From contig JABXJV010000122.1 in the NCBI GenBank assembly GCA_013375355.1, positions 1-11,935 on the forward strand: a stretch of DNA of 11,935 nucleotides. Reading direction: 5' to 3'. This DNA comes from Candidatus Helarchaeota archaeon. Its GTDB lineage: Archaea > Asgardarchaeota > Lokiarchaeia > Helarchaeales > JABXJV01. The first letter of the stretch is position 1. Every line of letters starts with the position of its first letter. The notes beneath the pieces were generated by a model. The model saw only the letters and a list, made by a program, of their open reading frames with translations. It was not told where the DNA came from and did no database searches. Made by a program: the position numbers and the translations under genes. Positions 2,405-11,659 of this stretch are shown piece after piece.

Positions 2405-3901
2405 TTACATAATTTTATCTTGTTTTAGAATTTCAAATAATTCAATAGCTGACATTGCTGCTAATTCAGTTCCTATACCCCATCCACCCGCATCAGCAGA
2501 AGAGAGGTATAATCCTTCAATCGGAGTTTTTTGTGACGGTCTTTTATCACCTACTTGATCTATAGTTTGCCCAATTCCTGTTCCTGCGCCTTCTTTACCC
2601 ATTCTTTTTTCAAGGTAAACATCTGATACAAAATCGGTAAAAACAATATGTTCTTCAACTTCAGGCCATAGTGATAATAGAGAGTTCAAGCAAGTTGCCT
2701 CCCACTTTTTACTATTAGCCTCACGTTTAGCCATTGTTAAATTTGAAACCCCAAGAGTAGTGGTAACTGTGTGAATATTTTGGCAACCTTCGGGAGCTAA
2801 TTTCGGATCATGATTACTCACTGGAACAATTAACAAAGCACTTTTCTCTGGAATTTCCATATCTTGATTATTAATTGCAGACCCATCAAATTTTCCTCTT
2901 AAGGTCTCTAAAATTTTCATATCCATCGGTGGGACATAAGTTATCATTTTTTGGTCTGTGATTATAGTGTCTAATGCTATTTTTTGGCTGCATACTTGCC
3001 CGCCCCAAGTCAGACCTTTAATGCGTTCTGTATATGCTTTATCAAAAAATTTTTCTCCTACAAATTTAAGGATTGTAGTTTTAATATCAGCATTTGAGAT
3101 CACAATATCTGCCGGATAGAATTTATTATCAGAACCCGCCTCTATTCCATTAACTTTGCCATCTTCGACAATGATTTTATTTACTGTCCCGTCCTCACCA
3201 ATTATGATTTTTCCGCCAGAATTTTCAATTGCTTTACAATAAGCTTCGGGGATAGCACCGCATCCACCAATTGGATAGCCCATCGAACGATTCATGCCAT
3301 TAAGACGGACACAACGAACAAATTCTCCAGCTGAAGATACATCTGGAGCAGTGCCAAACATGACCCCACCCTGCATCATATACATCATTTTCGTCATTGC
3401 GTATCTTGAACTATCAGGAATGACTTCATTTAAATAATCTATTAATCTAACTTCATCTAATTTTTTTATTTCTTCAGGTGTCATTGCCATAAATTTTTGC
3501 ATAATTTCTTTTCCAGGTGCAGGTTTTTTACTTTTAGTTGGTCGATCTTTTTTCTTCTTGACTTTTTTCTTCTTGACTTTTTTTCTTTGTCCAGAGTATG
3601 AAATCCAATTGCCCATAATGTTAATTCTTGGTCCAGGATTAACTGTGTGGCTCCATTCTACCGTTTGACCACATCTATCTAATATTTCACCTAGCGGGCC
3701 TTTTTCGCAGTTACTAATAATATGGCAGCCAATATCCATGCGCCAAGTTCTTCCTTGTTCATCCTTCTTATTATATGATGCACAGCGACCTCCAAGGATC
3801 GTGTTTTGTTCAAATAAAATAATATCCAATTTATTTTCTTTACTTAGTAACGCTCCAATACCTGAGCCACCTATCCCACTTCCTATTATTATTACTTTCA
3901 T
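2405..3901 (-). CDS. FAD-dependent oxidoreductase, phytoene desaturase (CrtI)/carotenoid isomerase superfamily, with poly-Lys insert
   Basis: 498 residues from the ATG at 3901, which has GGAG eight bases upstream. The in-frame TTG at 3922 would place that ribosome site inside the gene, so it is rejected. The N terminus VIIIGSGIGGSGIGALL is the dinucleotide-binding GxGxxG Rossmann element. FEQNTILGGRC followed by DIGCH is the GGR and second FAD-contact region of CrtI-like flavoproteins. ADIVISNADI and the C-terminal IEGLYLSSADAGGWGIGTELAAMSAIELFE are the usual FAD-closing segments. Reactions in this superfamily are desaturation, saturation or isomerisation of isoprenoid chains; the substrate here is unknown. 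Residues about 106-126 are a Lys-rich insert (RKKVKKKKVKKKK), coded by tandem 15-base repeats and absent from the related protein at 8809-10308. The gene is divergent from an acyl-CoA dehydrogenase and lies upstream of the winged-helix regulator, so joint control is likely. Confidence 0.85.
   Translation of the reverse strand: MKVIIIGSGIGGSGIGALLSKENKLDIILFEQNTILGGRCASYNKKDEQGRTWRMDIGCHIISNCEKGPLGEILDRCGQTVEWSHTVNPGPRINIMGNWISYSGQRKKVKKKKVKKKKDRPTKSKKPAPGKEIMQKFMAMTPEEIKKLDEVRLIDYLNEVIPDSSRYAMTKMMYMMQGGVMFGTAPDVSSAGEFVRCVRLNGMNRSMGYPIGGCGAIPEAYCKAIENSGGKIIIGEDGTVNKIIVEDGKVNGIEAGSDNKFYPADIVISNADIKTTILKFVGEKFFDKAYTERIKGLTWGGQVCSQKIALDTIITDQKMITYVPPMDMKILETLRGKFDGSAINNQDMEIPEKSALLIVPVSNHDPKLAPEGCQNIHTVTTTLGVSNLTMAKREANSKKWEATCLNSLLSLWPEVEEHIVFTDFVSDVYLEKRMGKEGAGTGIGQTIDQVGDKRPSQKTPIEGLYLSSADAGGWGIGTELAAMSAIELFEILKQDKIM
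3547..3576 (+). repeat. Two perfect tandem copies of a 15-base unit encoding Lys-rich sequence
   Basis: The unit CTTTTTTCTTCTTGA occurs at 3547-3561 and 3562-3576, with the start of a third degenerate copy after it. Read on the minus strand it keeps the frame and encodes repeating Lys/Val units inside the FAD oxidoreductase. Slipped-strand expansion is the likely origin. Confidence 0.8.
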
Positions 3902-3963
3902 TTTTTTATCTCCATTTTCCAATTGTATTTTAAAATTTAATTATTTAGTAAAGGAGTACATTA

Positions 3964-5202: not shown

Positions 5203-6147
5203 TTAAATTGATGATCTTCTCTTTTTAACGACTATTACTATCACAATCACAACACCGACTATTACAGCTACCGCTATTCCAATGATAAGTCCTGTATTTA
5301 CCTCACCACCCATAGTCATCAATGCTACTAGTATTAATGGATCTATTGCAGGGCCACCACCAGCGGCAGATGTAAGGTTCATCTCCCAAACCAAAACCCA
5401 ACCTGTAGTATATGTATACCATCGGCTACAATTAACTATTCCTTTATCATTGATAACTAATTCTTTTCTGTGATCTCCATTAGTCATTCCATCCCATACT
5501 CTCCAGATTCCTTCAACATTGGGAGATGCGGGATTGCTTTGTGAGACTCCAGATCCGCCACCGCCATGATTTAACATTATTCCCCAAGTCGTGTTAACAA
5601 TGGTATGATTAGTGTGCGTCCAGTTCATAGGAACACAAATCGGAAGAAAATACGTTAGCATATCTCCAGGTGTTATATTTACGTAGAAGTTATAAAGACC
5701 TAGACAATTCGAAATACCAAACATTTCCCATTGCCTAATTGACGAGTTGTACGCGCTTATAGCCCAAGGAAGAGGCATTCCCATCATGATATCATTAAGT
5801 AGTCTCCAACCAGACGATTTATTATAAAAATATACTTCGGCCAATAGGGTATCCGCATACCAAAACCAACCAGTCTCATCCCATAAAAGCCAAAATTGGT
5901 TATAACCATATAAAGCATTTATTTTCACTTTATCACTGATATTCATAGGAACAGATCCAAATAGTGTGTTGCCACCTACAGTACAATTGTATAAATAAGT
6001 TCTTTTTGTAGAAGAATCAAATCCATCAGCTCCTTCTTGCCAAGGTGGTGGTGGTACTTGGGCTGAAATTGATTGAAAGGGAAGAAGAAATAGCATCGTT
6101 GCAATCAAAGCAACTAAAAGAGGTAGAAATAAATTATTTTTTTTCAT
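5203..6147 (-). CDS. Secreted, C-terminally membrane-anchored glycoprotein, unknown function
   Basis: 314 residues. The N terminus is a Sec signal peptide: MKKNN, a hydrophobic core LFLPLLVALIATMLFLLPF, and a likely cut near SISAQ (about residue 30). A Pro-rich segment (PPPPW) follows. The body (about 35-270) is rich in aromatic residues and beta-prone, and carries ten N-x-S/T sequons (for example NCT, NIS, NKS, NSS, NIT, NWT, NHT, NTT, NCS, NLT) plus four Cys that could form two disulfides. Residues about 284-307 are one strongly hydrophobic helix followed by KKRRSSI, the stop-transfer pattern that leaves the body outside the cell. This architecture is common in archaeal surface proteins. 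The pattern around WLLWDETGWFWYAD suggests a carbohydrate-binding-like beta sandwich, but I cannot name a family. A GGTAGGGA stretch ahead of the ATG may be the ribosome site. Confidence 0.8.
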   Translation of the reverse strand: MKKNNLFLPLLVALIATMLFLLPFQSISAQVPPPPWQEGADGFDSSTKRTYLYNCTVGGNTLFGSVPMNISDKVKINALYGYNQFWLLWDETGWFWYADTLLAEVYFYNKSSGWRLLNDIMMGMPLPWAISAYNSSIRQWEMFGISNCLGLYNFYVNITPGDMLTYFLPICVPMNWTHTNHTIVNTTWGIMLNHGGGGSGVSQSNPASPNVEGIWRVWDGMTNGDHRKELVINDKGIVNCSRWYTYTTGWVLVWEMNLTSAAGGGPAIDPLILVALMTMGGEVNTGLIIGIAVAVIVGVVIVIVIVVKKRRSSI

Positions 6148-6185
6148 AGCTTTCCCTACCTGTTATATAAAGTTATAGACTTTTA

Positions 6186-6193
6186 TTTATAAA
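6186..6193 (-). promoter_or_regulatory. TATA box of the surface-glycoprotein gene
   Basis: TTTATAAA on the minus strand is centred about 42 bp before the ATG at 6147. It predicts a leader of about 16 bases that includes the GGTAGGGA ribosome site. A second box at 6163-6171 is too close to the ATG to serve this start. Confidence 0.4.
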
Positions 6194-6225
6194 AATATAT
6201 ACGAAAAACTTGTTTGTTTTTATAC

Positions 6226-6233
6226 AAAAAAAA
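6226..6233 (-). terminator. T-tract terminator after the selenoprotein transcript
   Basis: An uninterrupted run of eight T on the minus strand lies 32 bases beyond the SECIS element. It would end a transcript carrying the whole SECIS before the next promoter at about 6190. Confidence 0.45.
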
Positions 6234-6265
6234 TAATAGCCATAGAAAGTCTCACATTAAAACTT

Positions 6266-6335
6266 ACTGGAAAAGGATTGCATCCCTATCAATAATGCAT
6301 CCAAGTTTTTTGCATTATTTCATTTATTTTCCAGT
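6266..6335 (-). promoter_or_regulatory. SECIS element with eukaryote-like core in the 3' UTR
   Basis: Read on the minus strand, it begins one base after the TAG stop. Helix I is ACTGGAAAA (6335-6327) with TTTTCCAGT (6274-6266), nine perfect pairs. ATGA (6323-6320) then leads into helix II, AATAATGCA (6319-6311) with TGCATTATT (6299-6291), nine perfect pairs closing an 11-base loop AAAAACTTGGA. The 3' strand continues directly as GAT (6290-6288). Together the strands form U-U, G-A, A-G and A-U pairs, the UGAN/NGAU kink-turn quartet of eukaryotic SECIS elements, with unpaired AA in the apical loop and about the right helix length. The 3' side carries an extra 13 bases (6287-6275) that can fold into a small GGAT/ATCC stem. 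The classical archaeal SECIS (GAA/A bulge and a short GC stem) is not seen. Folding was judged by eye. Confidence 0.75.
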
Positions 6336-6336
6336 T

Positions 6337-6660
6337 CTATTCTAAATCACCAATTAGGAGATAACCTCTTCCTTCTTCTATTTTTCCATCGATAATTATT
6401 TTCTTTGCCATAAATAGGAAATATGCCGCATCTTCATCTACAAAAACTCGCAATCCATTTATAGTCCCTAATAATTCTAACTCATTCAATCTCGATGAAT
6501 CCTCGAAATGGATAGATGTCCAATATGCTCGTTGAGTGGAACATCAAGAAAAACGCTCGAATTCCGTTATCACTAATATTAAATTGTTTTTTTCATTGTT
6601 TTTAAGTCGTTCAGTGATCACAAGTTTGGCAAGGTCCGTCAACTCAATCTCTATAGTCAT
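6337..6660 (-). CDS. Predicted selenoprotein, HesB/IscA-like, Sec at codon 39 (in-frame TGA)
   Basis: 107 residues if the TGA at 6544-6546 is read as selenocysteine. Before it comes MTIEIELTDLAKLVITERL, the beta-strand plus 'LT-x-x-A' helix that opens HesB/IscA-type proteins, then NNLILVITEF. The Sec is followed at once by Cys (FS-U-CS), at the place where this fold carries its first conserved Cys. After it the same frame stays open for 68 codons to a TAG: GTINGLRVFVDEDAAYF resembles the G-x-x-V-x-V-D segment of the family, and GRGYLLIGDLE the final strand. The C-terminal Cys pair of Fe-S scaffold proteins is missing, so a redox rather than scaffold role is likely. HesB-like selenoproteins are known in archaea and bacteria. 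A SECIS begins one base after the stop. No clear Shine-Dalgarno precedes the ATG at 6660. Standard gene callers would skip this gene or call it broken. Alternative: a pseudogene with one stop. Confidence 0.75.
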
Positions 6661-6758
6661 TCTAATTCAACTTTATATTCTTGTCTAGTTAATACTAATT
6701 AATCATTTAATAAAAACGAATTTGCAAATAAAAATTAGAAAGTCTTAGCGGAAAATAA

Positions 6759-7970
6759 TTATATCTCCAATTCTCTCAAAAATCTGGTATCTTTACCCAA
6801 TCCAATTGAGACGACTCTGGATTCATCAATTGTTTCATTAGGTTCTGTTTGATGAGAAATATCTGTAAAGACTCCTGTTCTTGCTTCATCGAAGTCCATA
6901 TTAAAGGATTCTAATGTAATAACAGGATGTTTTTTCTTTACTACTTTTTTATTAATTCGAAAATCAAATAGTTCACGTTCATATGTTTCCTTTTTCTTTA
7001 ATATTGGGGGATAATAATGGATGCATTCCATTGGCATCTGTATACCGACTTCTGGATTCTCCCATTGGTATTGAAATATGATATTGAATAGTTCTGGTAT
7101 CTCTTCCATGCTCCAGTCATATATATTGTCTTCTACACCTTGACAATACAAATAATTCCCAAACATCATGCTTGCGAATCGGAGCCCAAATTCTGGACGC
7201 TTCATATACATGAAAGTTGTTAGAGTCGGTGGAGTGGGGTAATACCCAACCCATTCGAAGGGTAGTCCATATTCTTTGGGGTTAAAATAATCCCACAAGC
7301 TTACCATTGCCTCATAATTGCTTACGATGTAAATAGAATTTACACAACTAGACATCCAAGCTACTGCAATAACGTAAAATGAATCGCTCCATTGTGGAGT
7401 TCTTTCATTTCTGACATCTCTTAAAACATCTAAGATAGCGTGAGCCATTTTATTTTTATCTTTAAACCTTTTTGGAAAGTCTATTAATTTATAACCGAGT
7501 TTCATATGTCGTCTTTCTAATAAATCACGATCTTGCGGTGTCACAACCCAGAAATCTACCGGGATACCATCTTCTTCATGTGAATTTAACATAAAAAATA
7601 TTTCATTTTTCTCATCATCAAGTATAACAAATGTAGTATCAACTGAATCTCCCATCATTAACCTCATAAAACCTTGACATAAATCGGCACGTAGGGTGAT
7701 AACGGGAGGAAATAAATTGTAACTTAACATCCGTTTTGCATCTTCTGGAAGTATTTTTCCGTCAATTACTTCTTTAGCAGTAATAATTGAAGAATCTAAT
7801 CTCGATTTTAAGAAATCATAGACTCCCCCTTCTTCCTTTGCAAGTCCATTAATACCCTTTTGCCAATATTCCCACCCCAATTCTCGCAGCCCCCTCCAGA
7901 GATGCCTACCTAGGGGAAAAAACGGTTTAGTTGTGAAATTATCCGGAATATCACCATAATGAAATACCAT
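6759..7970 (-). CDS. Conserved-looking hypothetical protein, 403 residues, unrecognised family
   Basis: A soluble protein rich in aromatic residues, with no signal peptide, no membrane segment and no nucleotide-binding motif I can identify. The N-terminal part (about 1-90) has PLGRHLWRGLRELGWEYWQKG and helix-rich sequence. The middle (about 110-180) is alternating strand and helix (TTFVILDDEKNEIFFMLN, DFWVVTPQDRDLLERRHMKLGY). The following part has repeated Trp/Tyr-rich stretches (YEAMVSLWDYFNP, FEWVGYYPTPPTLTTFMY, YDWSMEEIPELFNIIFQYQWE). The tail after about residue 330 is charged and likely flexible. Four Cys are scattered, not in pairs. The start is the first ATG at 7970; no Shine-Dalgarno is evident. 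It lies 98 bp upstream of the selenoprotein on the same strand, so the two may share a transcript. Function unknown. Confidence 0.8.
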   Translation of the reverse strand: MVFHYGDIPDNFTTKPFFPLGRHLWRGLRELGWEYWQKGINGLAKEEGGVYDFLKSRLDSSIITAKEVIDGKILPEDAKRMLSYNLFPPVITLRADLCQGFMRLMMGDSVDTTFVILDDEKNEIFFMLNSHEEDGIPVDFWVVTPQDRDLLERRHMKLGYKLIDFPKRFKDKNKMAHAILDVLRDVRNERTPQWSDSFYVIAVAWMSSCVNSIYIVSNYEAMVSLWDYFNPKEYGLPFEWVGYYPTPPTLTTFMYMKRPEFGLRFASMMFGNYLYCQGVEDNIYDWSMEEIPELFNIIFQYQWENPEVGIQMPMECIHYYPPILKKKETYERELFDFRINKKVVKKKHPVITLESFNMDFDEARTGVFTDISHQTEPNETIDESRVVSIGLGKDTRFLRELEI

Positions 7971-8115: not shown

Positions 8116-8406
8116 TTAATCTTTTATACCAGGCCCTTTGATAACACTTTCATGGTCATCATAAGGGATTTGACGAATTAAAGCCCAATTTTTAACAGCT
8201 CTTGAGTAAATCCGAACATCTTTTATATCTTCATACGCCCCGATATAAACCACAACACTACAATCTTTACCCTTTTTAGTCTGGAATTTACCAGCTATTT
8301 TTTTAATGAAAATAGGTTCTTCTTCGATATCCATTTGAATTTTTGAGTTTTTAGTTAATAATTCAACTGCAAGCTCAATACCTTTCGTAATATCTTCTAC
8401 TTTCAT
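8116..8406 (-). CDS. Small protein B of a tandem paralogous pair, unknown function
   Basis: 96 residues. It opens MKVEDITKGIELAVELL and continues KIQMDIEEEPIFIKKIAGKF, matching its upstream neighbour (MKKEDIEKGIELFIETL, KIKIDYKEDVCYMRKLDGRF) at most positions over the first 45 residues, so the two arose by duplication. The second halves differ: this one has a strand-rich stretch (CSVVVYIGAYEDIKDVRIYS) and a polar tail ending KGPGIKD. The length and the helix-strand-strand-helix pattern suggest a compact alpha/beta domain. There is one Cys and no signal or membrane segment. The start at 8406 is supported by GGAGAG about 7 bases upstream, inside the 15-bp gap that separates it from the stop of its partner, so the two are surely co-transcribed. 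I do not recognise the family; a dimer-forming pair is an inference. Confidence 0.75.
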   Translation of the reverse strand: MKVEDITKGIELAVELLTKNSKIQMDIEEEPIFIKKIAGKFQTKKGKDCSVVVYIGAYEDIKDVRIYSRAVKNWALIRQIPYDDHESVIKGPGIKD

Positions 8407-8421: not shown

Positions 8422-8688
8422 TTAACTGATCTCCCCCAAATCTTCTAATTTTATATTTCTTTTTTGAGCTCCTTTATTAACCATTTTTTCTAATAAAGCT
8501 AATTTCTCAGGATCTTCTGTAATCAATACATAACCTAGTAGATTTTTCGCTTGATTGGTTGAATCCATGAATCTTCCGTCTAATTTTCTCATATAACATA
8601 CGTCTTCTTTATAATCTATTTTAATTTTGGTATTTTTTAGTGTTTCTATAAATAATTCTATTCCTTTTTCAATATCCTCTTTTTTCAT
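8422..8688 (-). CDS. Small protein A of a tandem paralogous pair, unknown function
   Basis: 88 residues, first gene of a two-gene unit. The N-terminal half shares the pattern MKxEDIxKGIEL-x-x-E-x-L, KI-x-x-D and K-(L/I)-x-G-(R/K)-F with the downstream gene, while the C-terminal half has its own helix (DPEKLALLEKMVNKGAQKR) and ends NIKLEDLGEIS. One Cys (DVCYM) lies where the partner has a hydrophobic residue. No signal peptide or membrane helix is present. The ATG at 8688 has only a weak GGT-type ribosome site (GGGTTTGGTCAA), while a TATA box about 80 bp upstream supports an independent promoter separate from the oxidoreductase gene at 8809. The family is not recognised; the divergent C-terminal halves suggest specialised, possibly heterodimeric, partners. 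Confidence 0.75.
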   Translation of the reverse strand: MKKEDIEKGIELFIETLKNTKIKIDYKEDVCYMRKLDGRFMDSTNQAKNLLGYVLITEDPEKLALLEKMVNKGAQKRNIKLEDLGEIS

Positions 8689-8808: not shown

Positions 8809-10308
8809 TTAGAGTTTTTTCATTAATTTTTCATATAATAACAACGCGCTGTCGGCCGCAAGTTCTGCTCCGATTCCGTGCATGCCAGTATCAGCTCCAA
8901 CAACATAAAGATTTTCTATTGGAAGCTCCATAGGGGGTCTAAATTTACCAACTTGATCCACAGTTTGACCTATACCAATTACATTGCCACCTTGTCCAGC
9001 AAATTTTTCGATTTCGGCTGGTGTAGTAATTTCCTTCCACATTACATGTTCTTCCATATTTGGGAAGATATCCAATAAACCGTTATATATTGAATCTGCC
9101 CATTTATCATAATCACAATTTCCTTCAGATGGATTAGCAGGAACACCTGAACCACCAAAAATTAATTGTTTTCCCTCGGGAGCTGAGGTTGGGTCTAGAT
9201 TAGATACGACTGGAACCATAATCATATAATGCTTTTCTGGAATATAATTTTTAAAAGCTTCGGATTTTAATATTTCACCCAATGAAATTTTTGACATTAC
9301 TTCATTAGTTGAAATTTCTCCACTTATTATCTTAGAAACAAGCTCTTGATCTATACCAAATTCTTTACCGAATTGTTCTACTGCTCTTGGTAAATCATCA
9401 AAATTTACGTACATAAACATGTTTTCTTCTGAAATTTTTTCATCAAGGGCAACCTTAACCATTAAAGTGGCTGCAGAAAAGGTATAATCTTTTACTTTTT
9501 GAACAAATTCTTTTGAAAAATATTTTTCTCCAACTAAATTTAAAGTAGTTGCTTTAATTCCAGCATTAGAAATTACTATATCGGATTCTATGAATTTGCC
9601 ATCTTCTAATTCAACGCCAGTGGCTTTATTACTTTCAACAATTATTTTCTTAACTTTTATTTCTGTTTTCACTTTACCTTTATCTTGAATTATAGCATCA
9701 CAATATGCACTAGGAATAGCAATACAACCTCCTGTTGGATATCCGCTACTCCTATTCTGCATCATCTCTTTTTGACAAATGATGAATTCGCCAGTGCTAG
9801 TAGCTTGTTGAGTAACAAAATAAAGACCACAAAAATAAGAAATTAGTGCTTGTGCCTTGGGATCATCAGTATATCGCCCCACAAATTCATCAATGGGAAC
9901 ATACATTAATTTTTCAATTTCCTTATCTGAAAATTTCAATACATCACTATATAATTTAATAAAATTACCTAGATCTTTACTGCTGAAATTTAATTTCCCT
10001 ACATCCCGAGGAAATTTAATAATTTGACCGTTAAAATGAAATTTAGGAAGCGGACGACAATAATTCCATTTAATAGAATTAGGTTTTTCAATAATTTGTG
10101 CTATCTTACCTAATCTACCCTTATCAGAATTCGCTATTAAATGGCATCCTACATCTAATTTAAAGCCTTCCCTCTCAAAGGTTGATAATCTTCCACCAAT
10201 AAGCGAGTTTTTTTCAAATAATGTCACATCAAAACCAGAATGTTGTAATAATGCACCTACTCCACTTCCTCCCACGCCAGAACCAATTATATTAACTTTT
10301 AATTTCAT
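8809..10308 (-). CDS. FAD-dependent oxidoreductase, phytoene desaturase (CrtI)/carotenoid isomerase superfamily
   Basis: 499 residues from the ATG at 10308, which has GGGGATGA four bases upstream. A longer in-frame start at 10401 would lie inside the MFS gene and adds no domain sequence. VNIIGSGVGGSGVGALL is the Rossmann FAD-binding turn, LFEKNSLIGGRLSTFEREGFKLDVGCH holds the second FAD contacts, SDIVISNAGIKATTLN the central flavin segment, and IENLYVVGADTGMHGIGAELAADSALLLYEKL the closing FAD helix. It is a clear paralogue of the protein at 2405-3901 (shared GGC-x-AIP-x-AYC-x-AI, IGQT-x-DQVG and C-terminal blocks), but it has an ordinary helical segment where that one has a poly-Lys insert. 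It should act on a hydrophobic, probably isoprenoid, chain; direction and substrate are unknown. The gap of 16 bp to the MFS transporter stop indicates one operon and suggests the transporter moves the product or substrate. Confidence 0.87.
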   Translation of the reverse strand: MKLKVNIIGSGVGGSGVGALLQHSGFDVTLFEKNSLIGGRLSTFEREGFKLDVGCHLIANSDKGRLGKIAQIIEKPNSIKWNYCRPLPKFHFNGQIIKFPRDVGKLNFSSKDLGNFIKLYSDVLKFSDKEIEKLMYVPIDEFVGRYTDDPKAQALISYFCGLYFVTQQATSTGEFIICQKEMMQNRSSGYPTGGCIAIPSAYCDAIIQDKGKVKTEIKVKKIIVESNKATGVELEDGKFIESDIVISNAGIKATTLNLVGEKYFSKEFVQKVKDYTFSAATLMVKVALDEKISEENMFMYVNFDDLPRAVEQFGKEFGIDQELVSKIISGEISTNEVMSKISLGEILKSEAFKNYIPEKHYMIMVPVVSNLDPTSAPEGKQLIFGGSGVPANPSEGNCDYDKWADSIYNGLLDIFPNMEEHVMWKEITTPAEIEKFAGQGGNVIGIGQTVDQVGKFRPPMELPIENLYVVGADTGMHGIGAELAADSALLLYEKLMKKL

Positions 10309-10324
10309 CTTTTCATCCCCAAGT

Positions 10325-11659
10325 TTAATGATGTGGCTTTTGAGAAGGTTTAGCTTCATATTGAAAGACAATAGGTCTAAATGACATTGAAAAGGCAGCA
10401 ATTGCTAATAAAGTAGCTACCATAGCAAACCAAGTTGAACCAAAAGTTCCAAGGATAAAACTACCTAATAATGGACCTATAATTTGCGCAAGATTGTCTA
10501 AGGAAGTGTTTAAACCACCCATTTTTCCTTGTTTCTTTGGGCTTACAGATCTGCTTTGAAATGAAATTAAAACTCCTCTTGAACACGACGCCGCATAGCT
10601 TACAAGCATAAGTACCAGAAGGAACTGTAGAAAATCTTGAACGAATGCCATAGCAAAAAAAGCGATAACAAAACAAGTCAAACCTATTTGGGATGTTCGT
10701 TTATCACCAAATTTCTTTAATGTAGGTTCGAAAATGTAAAACCGAATAATCAAACGAGCAATACCTGAAAGTGACATATAAAAACCTATTTCATCTGGTT
10801 TCATATGCAACCGAATATCTGCAAATAATGCAATATTCGAAATATAGACCATAAATGAGATTGTATGAAAAGCCCATTGAATAAGTAAAAACATTGCTAG
10901 TCCATTTTTCCAAATTGGTCGGGATTTAACATCTGGTTTTATTGAAGTTGGTTTAATAGGTATATTTTGAATTGGATTTTCTTTTTTAGGCTGAAAATGA
11001 CTTTTTATAGGAGCAGATTCTTTAAGATAAAAAAATGTAACAATTATTGTAAGTAAAGAAAGACATGCAGAAAATAATCCAGGTGCTATTATCCCCCATC
11101 TAGTATAAAGAAAACCCCCTAATGCAGGTCCGAATAAAGATGCAAGAACATGTGCCACTCCTACATTAGTCATTTGCGGGGCACGATGTTTAGGAGGAAC
11201 TACATCACCAATTACGGCTTTTGCTATAGGAAAATTTCCTCCAAATACCCCATCAATAATTCTTGATATTAATACCATCTCATAACTAGTTGAAAAAGCT
11301 AACATTACAAATGCGGATAATGTTCCAAATTGACTAATTAATAATAATGGTCTTCTTCCATACTTATCACTTAAACTACCTAAAATTGGACCAAAAAAGA
11401 ATCCAAAAACCGCATTTGTTGCTAAAGCTATACCAACCATCAATGCTACAGTTGGTGAATAAGGAAATAAATCAAAGATCGGTTGTAGTTCGGGTACTGG
11501 TAGAGTTAATTCTTTAATGAAAAATGGAAGGAATGGAATAATAAGCGTAAAACCTAAAATATCAATAAAAACAGCTATCCATAAAGGAAATAGCCCGGGA
11601 AATTTTATTTTTGCTATCTTGATATCTAGTGGTTTTATGTCATTGATTTCATCATCCAT
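10325..11659 (-). CDS. Major facilitator superfamily transporter, DHA1/TetA-like
   Basis: 444 residues with about 12 membrane helices, the usual length for the family. Helix 1 (FPLWIAVFIDILGFTLIIPFLPFF) is typical of drug:H+ antiporter type 1 members. The loop between helices 2 and 3 has the MFS signature GSLSDKYGRRP (about residues 94-104). Further on are VLISRIIDGVFGGNFPIAKAVIGDVVPPKHRA (motif-B/C-like region) and LFGPALGGFLY, an antiporter-type motif seen in exporters. A charged central loop (about 215-245) separates the two halves. It probably exports a small hydrophobic molecule across the cell membrane, driven by protons; the substrate cannot be told from sequence. The start is placed at the ATG at 11659; an in-frame TTG at 11671 lacks a ribosome site. 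It leads an operon with the FAD oxidoreductase 16 bp downstream and is divergent from the gene starting at 11854. Confidence 0.88.
   Translation of the reverse strand: MDDEINDIKPLDIKIAKIKFPGLFPLWIAVFIDILGFTLIIPFLPFFIKELTLPVPELQPIFDLFPYSPTVALMVGIALATNAVFGFFFGPILGSLSDKYGRRPLLLISQFGTLSAFVMLAFSTSYEMVLISRIIDGVFGGNFPIAKAVIGDVVPPKHRAPQMTNVGVAHVLASLFGPALGGFLYTRWGIIAPGLFSACLSLLTIIVTFFYLKESAPIKSHFQPKKENPIQNIPIKPTSIKPDVKSRPIWKNGLAMFLLIQWAFHTISFMVYISNIALFADIRLHMKPDEIGFYMSLSGIARLIIRFYIFEPTLKKFGDKRTSQIGLTCFVIAFFAMAFVQDFLQFLLVLMLVSYAASCSRGVLISFQSRSVSPKKQGKMGGLNTSLDNLAQIIGPLLGSFILGTFGSTWFAMVATLLAIAAFSMSFRPIVFQYEAKPSQKPHH

Follow-up and report, generated by a model that had tools for sequence, protein, structure and literature searches.

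The question raised by this locus is whether a short frame on the minus strand, which under the standard code is broken by a single TGA, is an intact gene whose TGA specifies selenocysteine (Sec), and what kind of protein such a gene would encode. The window, i.e. the whole stretch of DNA that was analysed, comprises 11,935 nucleotides of a contig of a Candidatus Helarchaeota archaeon. Our answer, drawn from sequence comparisons, is that positions 6337-6660 represent, with a probability of about 0.8, the gene of a selenoprotein of approximately 107 residues with IscA/HesB fold, which belongs to a diverse set of IscA-fold Sec proteins of Asgard archaea that has not been catalogued so far.

The frame and its TGA codon

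When the strand was re-read, the 107-codon frame at 6337-6660 proved to be as the sequence-only reading had described it, with a single in-frame TGA directly followed by TGT. The coding features are these:

6340..6660, minus strand: coding sequence of 107 residues including the putative Sec39, start codon ATG at 6658-6660, stop codon TAG at 6337-6339; 87% identical to its counterpart L001, IscA fold predicted
6544..6546, minus strand: in-frame TGA, codon 39, putative Sec codon; Cys stands at the matching place in six TGA-less homologues
6541..6543, minus strand: TGT, read as Cys40, the sole Cys of the protein and the putative resolving residue

The residues at and after the presumed Sec are UCST. 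As the protein contains no Cys besides Cys40, it lacks the C-terminal Cys pair, as had been pointed out before.

A search of the species genomes brought up one relative, L001 (Candidatus Helarchaeota archaeon isolate LW55_61). Over 107 residues the two proteins are 87% identical, and L001 has kept the frame, the length and the TGA codon. The Ka/Ks ratio between the two genes is 0.19 for codons 1-38, 0.12 for codons 40-107 and 0.145 overall, and the changes 3' of the TGA are distributed over codon positions 1, 2 and 3 as 7, 1 and 14; the stretch downstream of the TGA therefore appears to be translated in the same frame. The TGA lies within coding sequence that is conserved on both sides, which is the arrangement looked for in a selenoprotein gene.

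The gene order flanking the Sec gene is mostly common to the window and L001. Two related FAD-dependent oxidoreductases of the amine oxidase type (2405-3922 and 8809-10401, both minus strand) flank the gene, and the same pair is present in L001, where the small related genes 8116-8406 and 8422-8688 also recur. A 314-residue protein (5203-6147, minus strand), which has a hydrophobic start, a hydrophobic stretch near its end and no Pfam match, adjoins the Sec gene in L001 too. Directly upstream of the Sec gene lies a 403-residue frame (6759-7970, minus strand), again without a Pfam match; it is missing from the corresponding place of L001 and would represent an insertion or a loss between close relatives.

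The 3' hairpin and the Sec machinery

Downstream of the stop codon the transcript is predicted to form a hairpin, which had not been noticed in the sequence-only reading:

6287..6323, minus strand: SECIS-like core with ATGA at 6320-6323, a 9-bp stem (6311-6319 with 6291-6299), an 11-base loop (6300-6310) that begins with AAAAA, and GA on the 6287-6290 side
6266..6335, minus strand: whole predicted hairpin including the lower helix (6328-6335 with 6266-6273), -18.7 kcal/mol, z -3.08

The AUGA of the hairpin starts 13 bases past the stop codon of the window gene. When 86 bases were folded, none of 200 shuffled sequences was as stable (z -3.08). The counterpart in L001 had a z of -2.38 with 8 of 200 shuffles as stable, its lower helix closes as well, and one G-C pair is replaced by A-U, a compensatory change. 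A strict pattern requiring nine perfect pairs, run on both strands, matched once in the window and once in L001, in both cases at this position 3' of the gene. Among 2000 shuffles of the 200 bases 3' of the stop the pattern occurred once, and with an AAA loop it did not occur. An Rfam scan of 6000-6760 assigned no family to the hairpin; it returned two matches, both far under the cut-offs. In pattern and fold the predicted element corresponds to a SECIS of the archaeal/Asgard type located in the 3' region, and it has the same layout as the type I eukaryote-like SECIS elements described in Asgard archaea (PMC11227280). A hairpin of the same type, again with an AAAAA loop, lies 14 bases past the stop codon of an FrhD gene (L039) in G001, the genome from which L001 comes. 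We regard this predicted hairpin as the strongest single piece of evidence for Sec.

G001 is the nearest sequenced genome. It has a tRNA-Sec (63.5 bits, cut-off 47), SelB and SepSecS, all three on one contig, and known selenoprotein genes bearing TGA, namely SelD with one TGA and 3 of 14 FrhD matches. Of the Sec machinery for which a search had been proposed, tRNA-Sec, SelB and SepSecS are thus present in the relative, and from G001 we infer the machinery for the organism of the window. With homologues that carry TGA or Cys at the place in question, an intact copy and the Sec machinery in the nearest sequenced genome, the earlier suggestion that the TGA is read as Sec is supported, and TGA 6544-6546 is very probably a Sec codon.

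Homologues in Asgard archaea

When 227 genomes of the phylum were searched with the NF041239 profile, none of the matches exceeded the 40-bit cut-off, and each of the five best contained one TGA. These five, the window group and the Cys forms were combined in a profile (A5); the group was therefore found partly via its TGA members. The A5 search gave 49 matches in 37 of the 227 genomes (E 0.1 or better). We kept 45 of these, and dropped the matches in G135 and G146 and one of the two in G147 (48-residue matches, 298-residue frame, no TGA), as well as a 30-residue match with TGA in G157. Of earlier weak matches in five genomes, those in G022 (with internal TAG and TAA) and G212 were left aside.

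One TGA was present in 39 of the 45 kept matches, the L001 gene and the distant member G082, which has a TAA besides its TGA, included; 28 of the 39 had E values of 4.3e-5 or better and 11 fell between 0.0017 and 0.042. In the profile alignment, for which the TGA residue was entered as X and only the column of the window group was masked, the TGA fell on positions 39-43 in all 36 aligned sequences (28 on position 42), the window included, whereas 4 of 40 did not align. The six matches without TGA, all distant (about 20-30% identical), have Cys at the Sec place in 6/6; no close Cys-form homologue of the window protein was found among the homologues kept. The proposed check for Cys or Sec at position 39 thus came out as expected for a Sec codon, with 39 TGA and 6 Cys. 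As controls, internal stops were counted in canonical HesB-type TIGR01911 matches (0/16), thioredoxin matches (0/71) and SepSecS matches (1/134).

A hairpin scoring at least 16 follows 27 of the 40 TGA genes (window included), none of the six TGA-less members, and was obtained in 40 of 8000 shuffles. The scan is not very sensitive, since it gave a match in just 2 of the 5 known selenoprotein genes on which it was run. Of the 13 TGA members that it missed, 5 have no hairpin and 8 have variant-like ones by eye, seven of which share a bulged hairpin while that of G077 scores with an AA core; being judged post hoc, these 8 were not counted.

Among the 32 genomes with a TGA member, SepSecS was found in 27, tRNA-Sec (E 1e-7) in 16, either of them in 30, and neither in two (G084, G151). 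The corresponding figure for the whole set is 137 of 227 (Fisher p 7e-6 with kinship ignored, a value which overstates the case because the genomes are related). One SepSecS match (G093:C197:20705-22003) itself holds an internal TGA.

The Sec motifs of the subgroups include UC[ST], UCG, USG and UTM. Genome G001 contains two further members, L111 (contig C3, TGA, motif GUGG) and L110 (C5, Cys form). A weakly matching subgroup (G141, G151, G132, G152, G147, G140, G139, G155, G145, G148) with the motif U[TL][ML]..[CG], in which the stop is followed by a hairpin, either bulged or plain, is probably a separate subfamily.

Two other explanations of the TGA have to be weighed against these data. It could be a plain nonsense mutation in a decayed gene, since under the standard code it breaks the frame, and the distant member G082 does have a second stop, TAA. 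Decay is hard to reconcile with a TGA, a frame and a protein kept at 87% identity, with a Ka/Ks of 0.12 downstream of the TGA, with TGA at the same place in 39 relatives, and with the hairpin. The conserved TGA, the Ka/Ks values and the group alignment together with the hairpin largely refute this explanation, to which we attach an almost negligible probability; the concern that the copy might be a decayed pseudogene is answered by the low Ka/Ks on both sides of the TGA. The second possibility, that the codon is read as tryptophan under a changed code or by plain readthrough, could draw on four database homologues with W at position 39, except that one of these is the frame of the window itself (P0003), so the W is best taken as TGA translated with another table, in P0004-P0006 presumably as well. 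All 11 likely genes of the window end in TAA and 54 TGG codons are used in them, thus TGA does not appear to be a general Trp codon here. Moreover, the TGA-less homologues have Cys, never Trp, at this place, and neither the SECIS-like hairpin nor the Sec machinery fits a Trp codon. We consider this possibility very improbable, and retain Sec as the reading of the TGA.

Fold, family relations and possible function

A-type Fe-S carriers such as IscA and SufA have three ligand Cys residues, the last two of which are close to the C terminus. The sequence-only reading had compared the frame to this HesB/IscA type, and the likeness was borne out, although the match of the window protein itself to Pfam PF01521 is weak (E 0.0096, 16.6 bits, below the gathering cut-off of 26.3). 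One Cys-form homologue passes this cut-off with 27.3 bits, and the window protein is predicted to have the IscA fold, with the confidence of the model lowest at residues 36-38, next to Sec. In a profile-profile alignment with canonical HesB-type proteins from this phylum (probability 90%, E 1.5e-6) the Sec-Cys pair falls, as had been proposed, on their first conserved Cys; the alignment is ambiguous by one column as to which of the two, U39 or C40, corresponds to it exactly. Searches with the window protein gave no match in PDB sequences, none in PHROGs, and no NCBIfam family at E 10. The protein differs from the A-type carriers IscA, SufA and ErpA (PF01521) in that it lacks the C-terminal Cys pair, has Sec in place of Cys, and scores under the cut-off.

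The claim that HesB-like selenoproteins are an established family is true as far as TIGR01911 (HesB_rel_seleno; methanogens, bacteria) is concerned, which is similarly a small IscA/HesB-like protein with one Sec, but the window protein fails the TIGR01911 profile, and none of the 227 genomes of the phylum has a match over its cut-off. According to the consulted part of PMC13188914 there are 11 archaeal selenoprotein families, of which the HesB-like one is TIGR01911 with the motif UxGP; the UCST of the window protein differs from this, while UCGP is found at this site in a relative (L084). The function of TIGR01911 proteins is given as unknown in PMC11097638. NF041239 (Moor_selen_rel, CC/Se motif family), which comprises bacterial Cys or Sec proteins and was described from Moorella with the motif CxxU, was run on 37 Asgard members and matches 14 of them with E values up to 0.01 (best 8.8e-12), but not the window subgroup; a table in PMC13188914 gives this family without the mark that the HesB-like one carries. 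As the window protein fails both profiles and the PF01521 cut-off, we consider it akin to the HesB-like selenoproteins and not a member of TIGR01911 or NF041239.

For Asgard archaea, 1439 selenoprotein sequences in seven families have been listed: SelD, FrhA, HdrA, FrhD, Prx-like, an AhpF N-terminal homologue and DsbA-like (PMC11227280). The decoding is common to these and the present group (eukaryote-like SECIS past the stop codon, as in FrhD of G001); in the main text of that paper none of the seven is HesB/IscA-like, and the words HesB, IscA and iron-sulfur do not occur there. PMC9723677 and PMC11291895, in the parts consulted, name other selenoprotein families. Priority is not proven by this survey, which covered main texts and few subscription papers.

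As to function, SelB would bring Sec-tRNA(Sec) to the UGA, directed by the 3' hairpin. In the predicted structure two long beta strands are joined by the loop that carries Sec39, which there occupies the site of the first ligand Cys in IscA. Its selenolate may attack an oxidised substrate, Cys40 would then resolve the intermediate by forming a vicinal selenenylsulfide with Sec39, and a thioredoxin-type reductant could reopen it. Such a partner is suggested by gene neighbourhoods in other subgroups, not by that of the window. For the protein of the window itself, both the partner and the substrate are putative. Of 26 TGA loci, taken from 19 of the 32 genomes, 8 have a thioredoxin gene no more than 1 kb away, as against 0.047 expected under uniform placement; the independent cases are fewer than 8, because several loci are closely related (G089, G090, G091; G085, G086). 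Four of the eight neighbours are downstream on the same strand and four are divergent; near the window gene and L001 no thioredoxin gene was seen. In G091:C434 and G087:C1 an ATP pyrophosphatase (PP-loop) gene (L125, L133) adjoins the Sec member, and may be connected with the transfer of sulfur or selenium.

The protein might instead be a metal or iron-sulfur carrier, in which Sec39 and Cys40, perhaps in a dimer, stand in for the IscA ligand Cys and coordinate iron, a cluster or a soft metal. The IscA fold, the presence of Sec/Cys where the first ligand Cys is expected and, in some subgroups, a lone C-terminal Cys in a G-x-C context would all suit a carrier. The ligand pair at the C terminus is missing, however: a C..C pattern occurs in the last 25 residues of only one of 39 members (the window protein and 38 others), and C40 is the single Cys of the window protein, which favours a Sec-Cys redox pair over an iron-sulfur carrier of the IscA type. 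A Cys follows within six residues of the Sec in 33 of these 39, immediately after it in 15, and the thioredoxin neighbours in other subgroups also point to redox turnover. We therefore hold a carrier function to be rather unlikely. A hitherto undescribed redox form, as had been suggested, agrees with the lone Sec-Cys pair, but stays a suggestion. That the whole Asgard set, with no fewer than 39 TGA genes, spread over 32 of the 227 genomes, forms one diverse superfamily with eukaryote-type SECIS elements and thioredoxin-linked selenol redox activity instead of iron-sulfur carriage is a proposal to which we would give even odds.

Asgard archaea are a reference point for the transition from the archaeal to the eukaryotic Sec system, and the published catalogue of their selenoproteome comprises seven families. 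If the superfamily proposal is true, Asgard archaea would have an eighth selenoprotein family, one in which the IscA fold serves redox chemistry. A further diverse family with eukaryote-type hairpins would also enlarge the set, and models of SECIS elements could draw on its many new sequences. For some Asgard genomes, 12-25 and 19-25 SECIS elements were predicted as compared to two and three selenoproteins (PMC9723677), and the group described here may help to explain this surplus. It would, finally, place a Sec-Cys pair on a fold otherwise tied to iron-sulfur work; the named selenoprotein family nearest to it has no known function in any organism.
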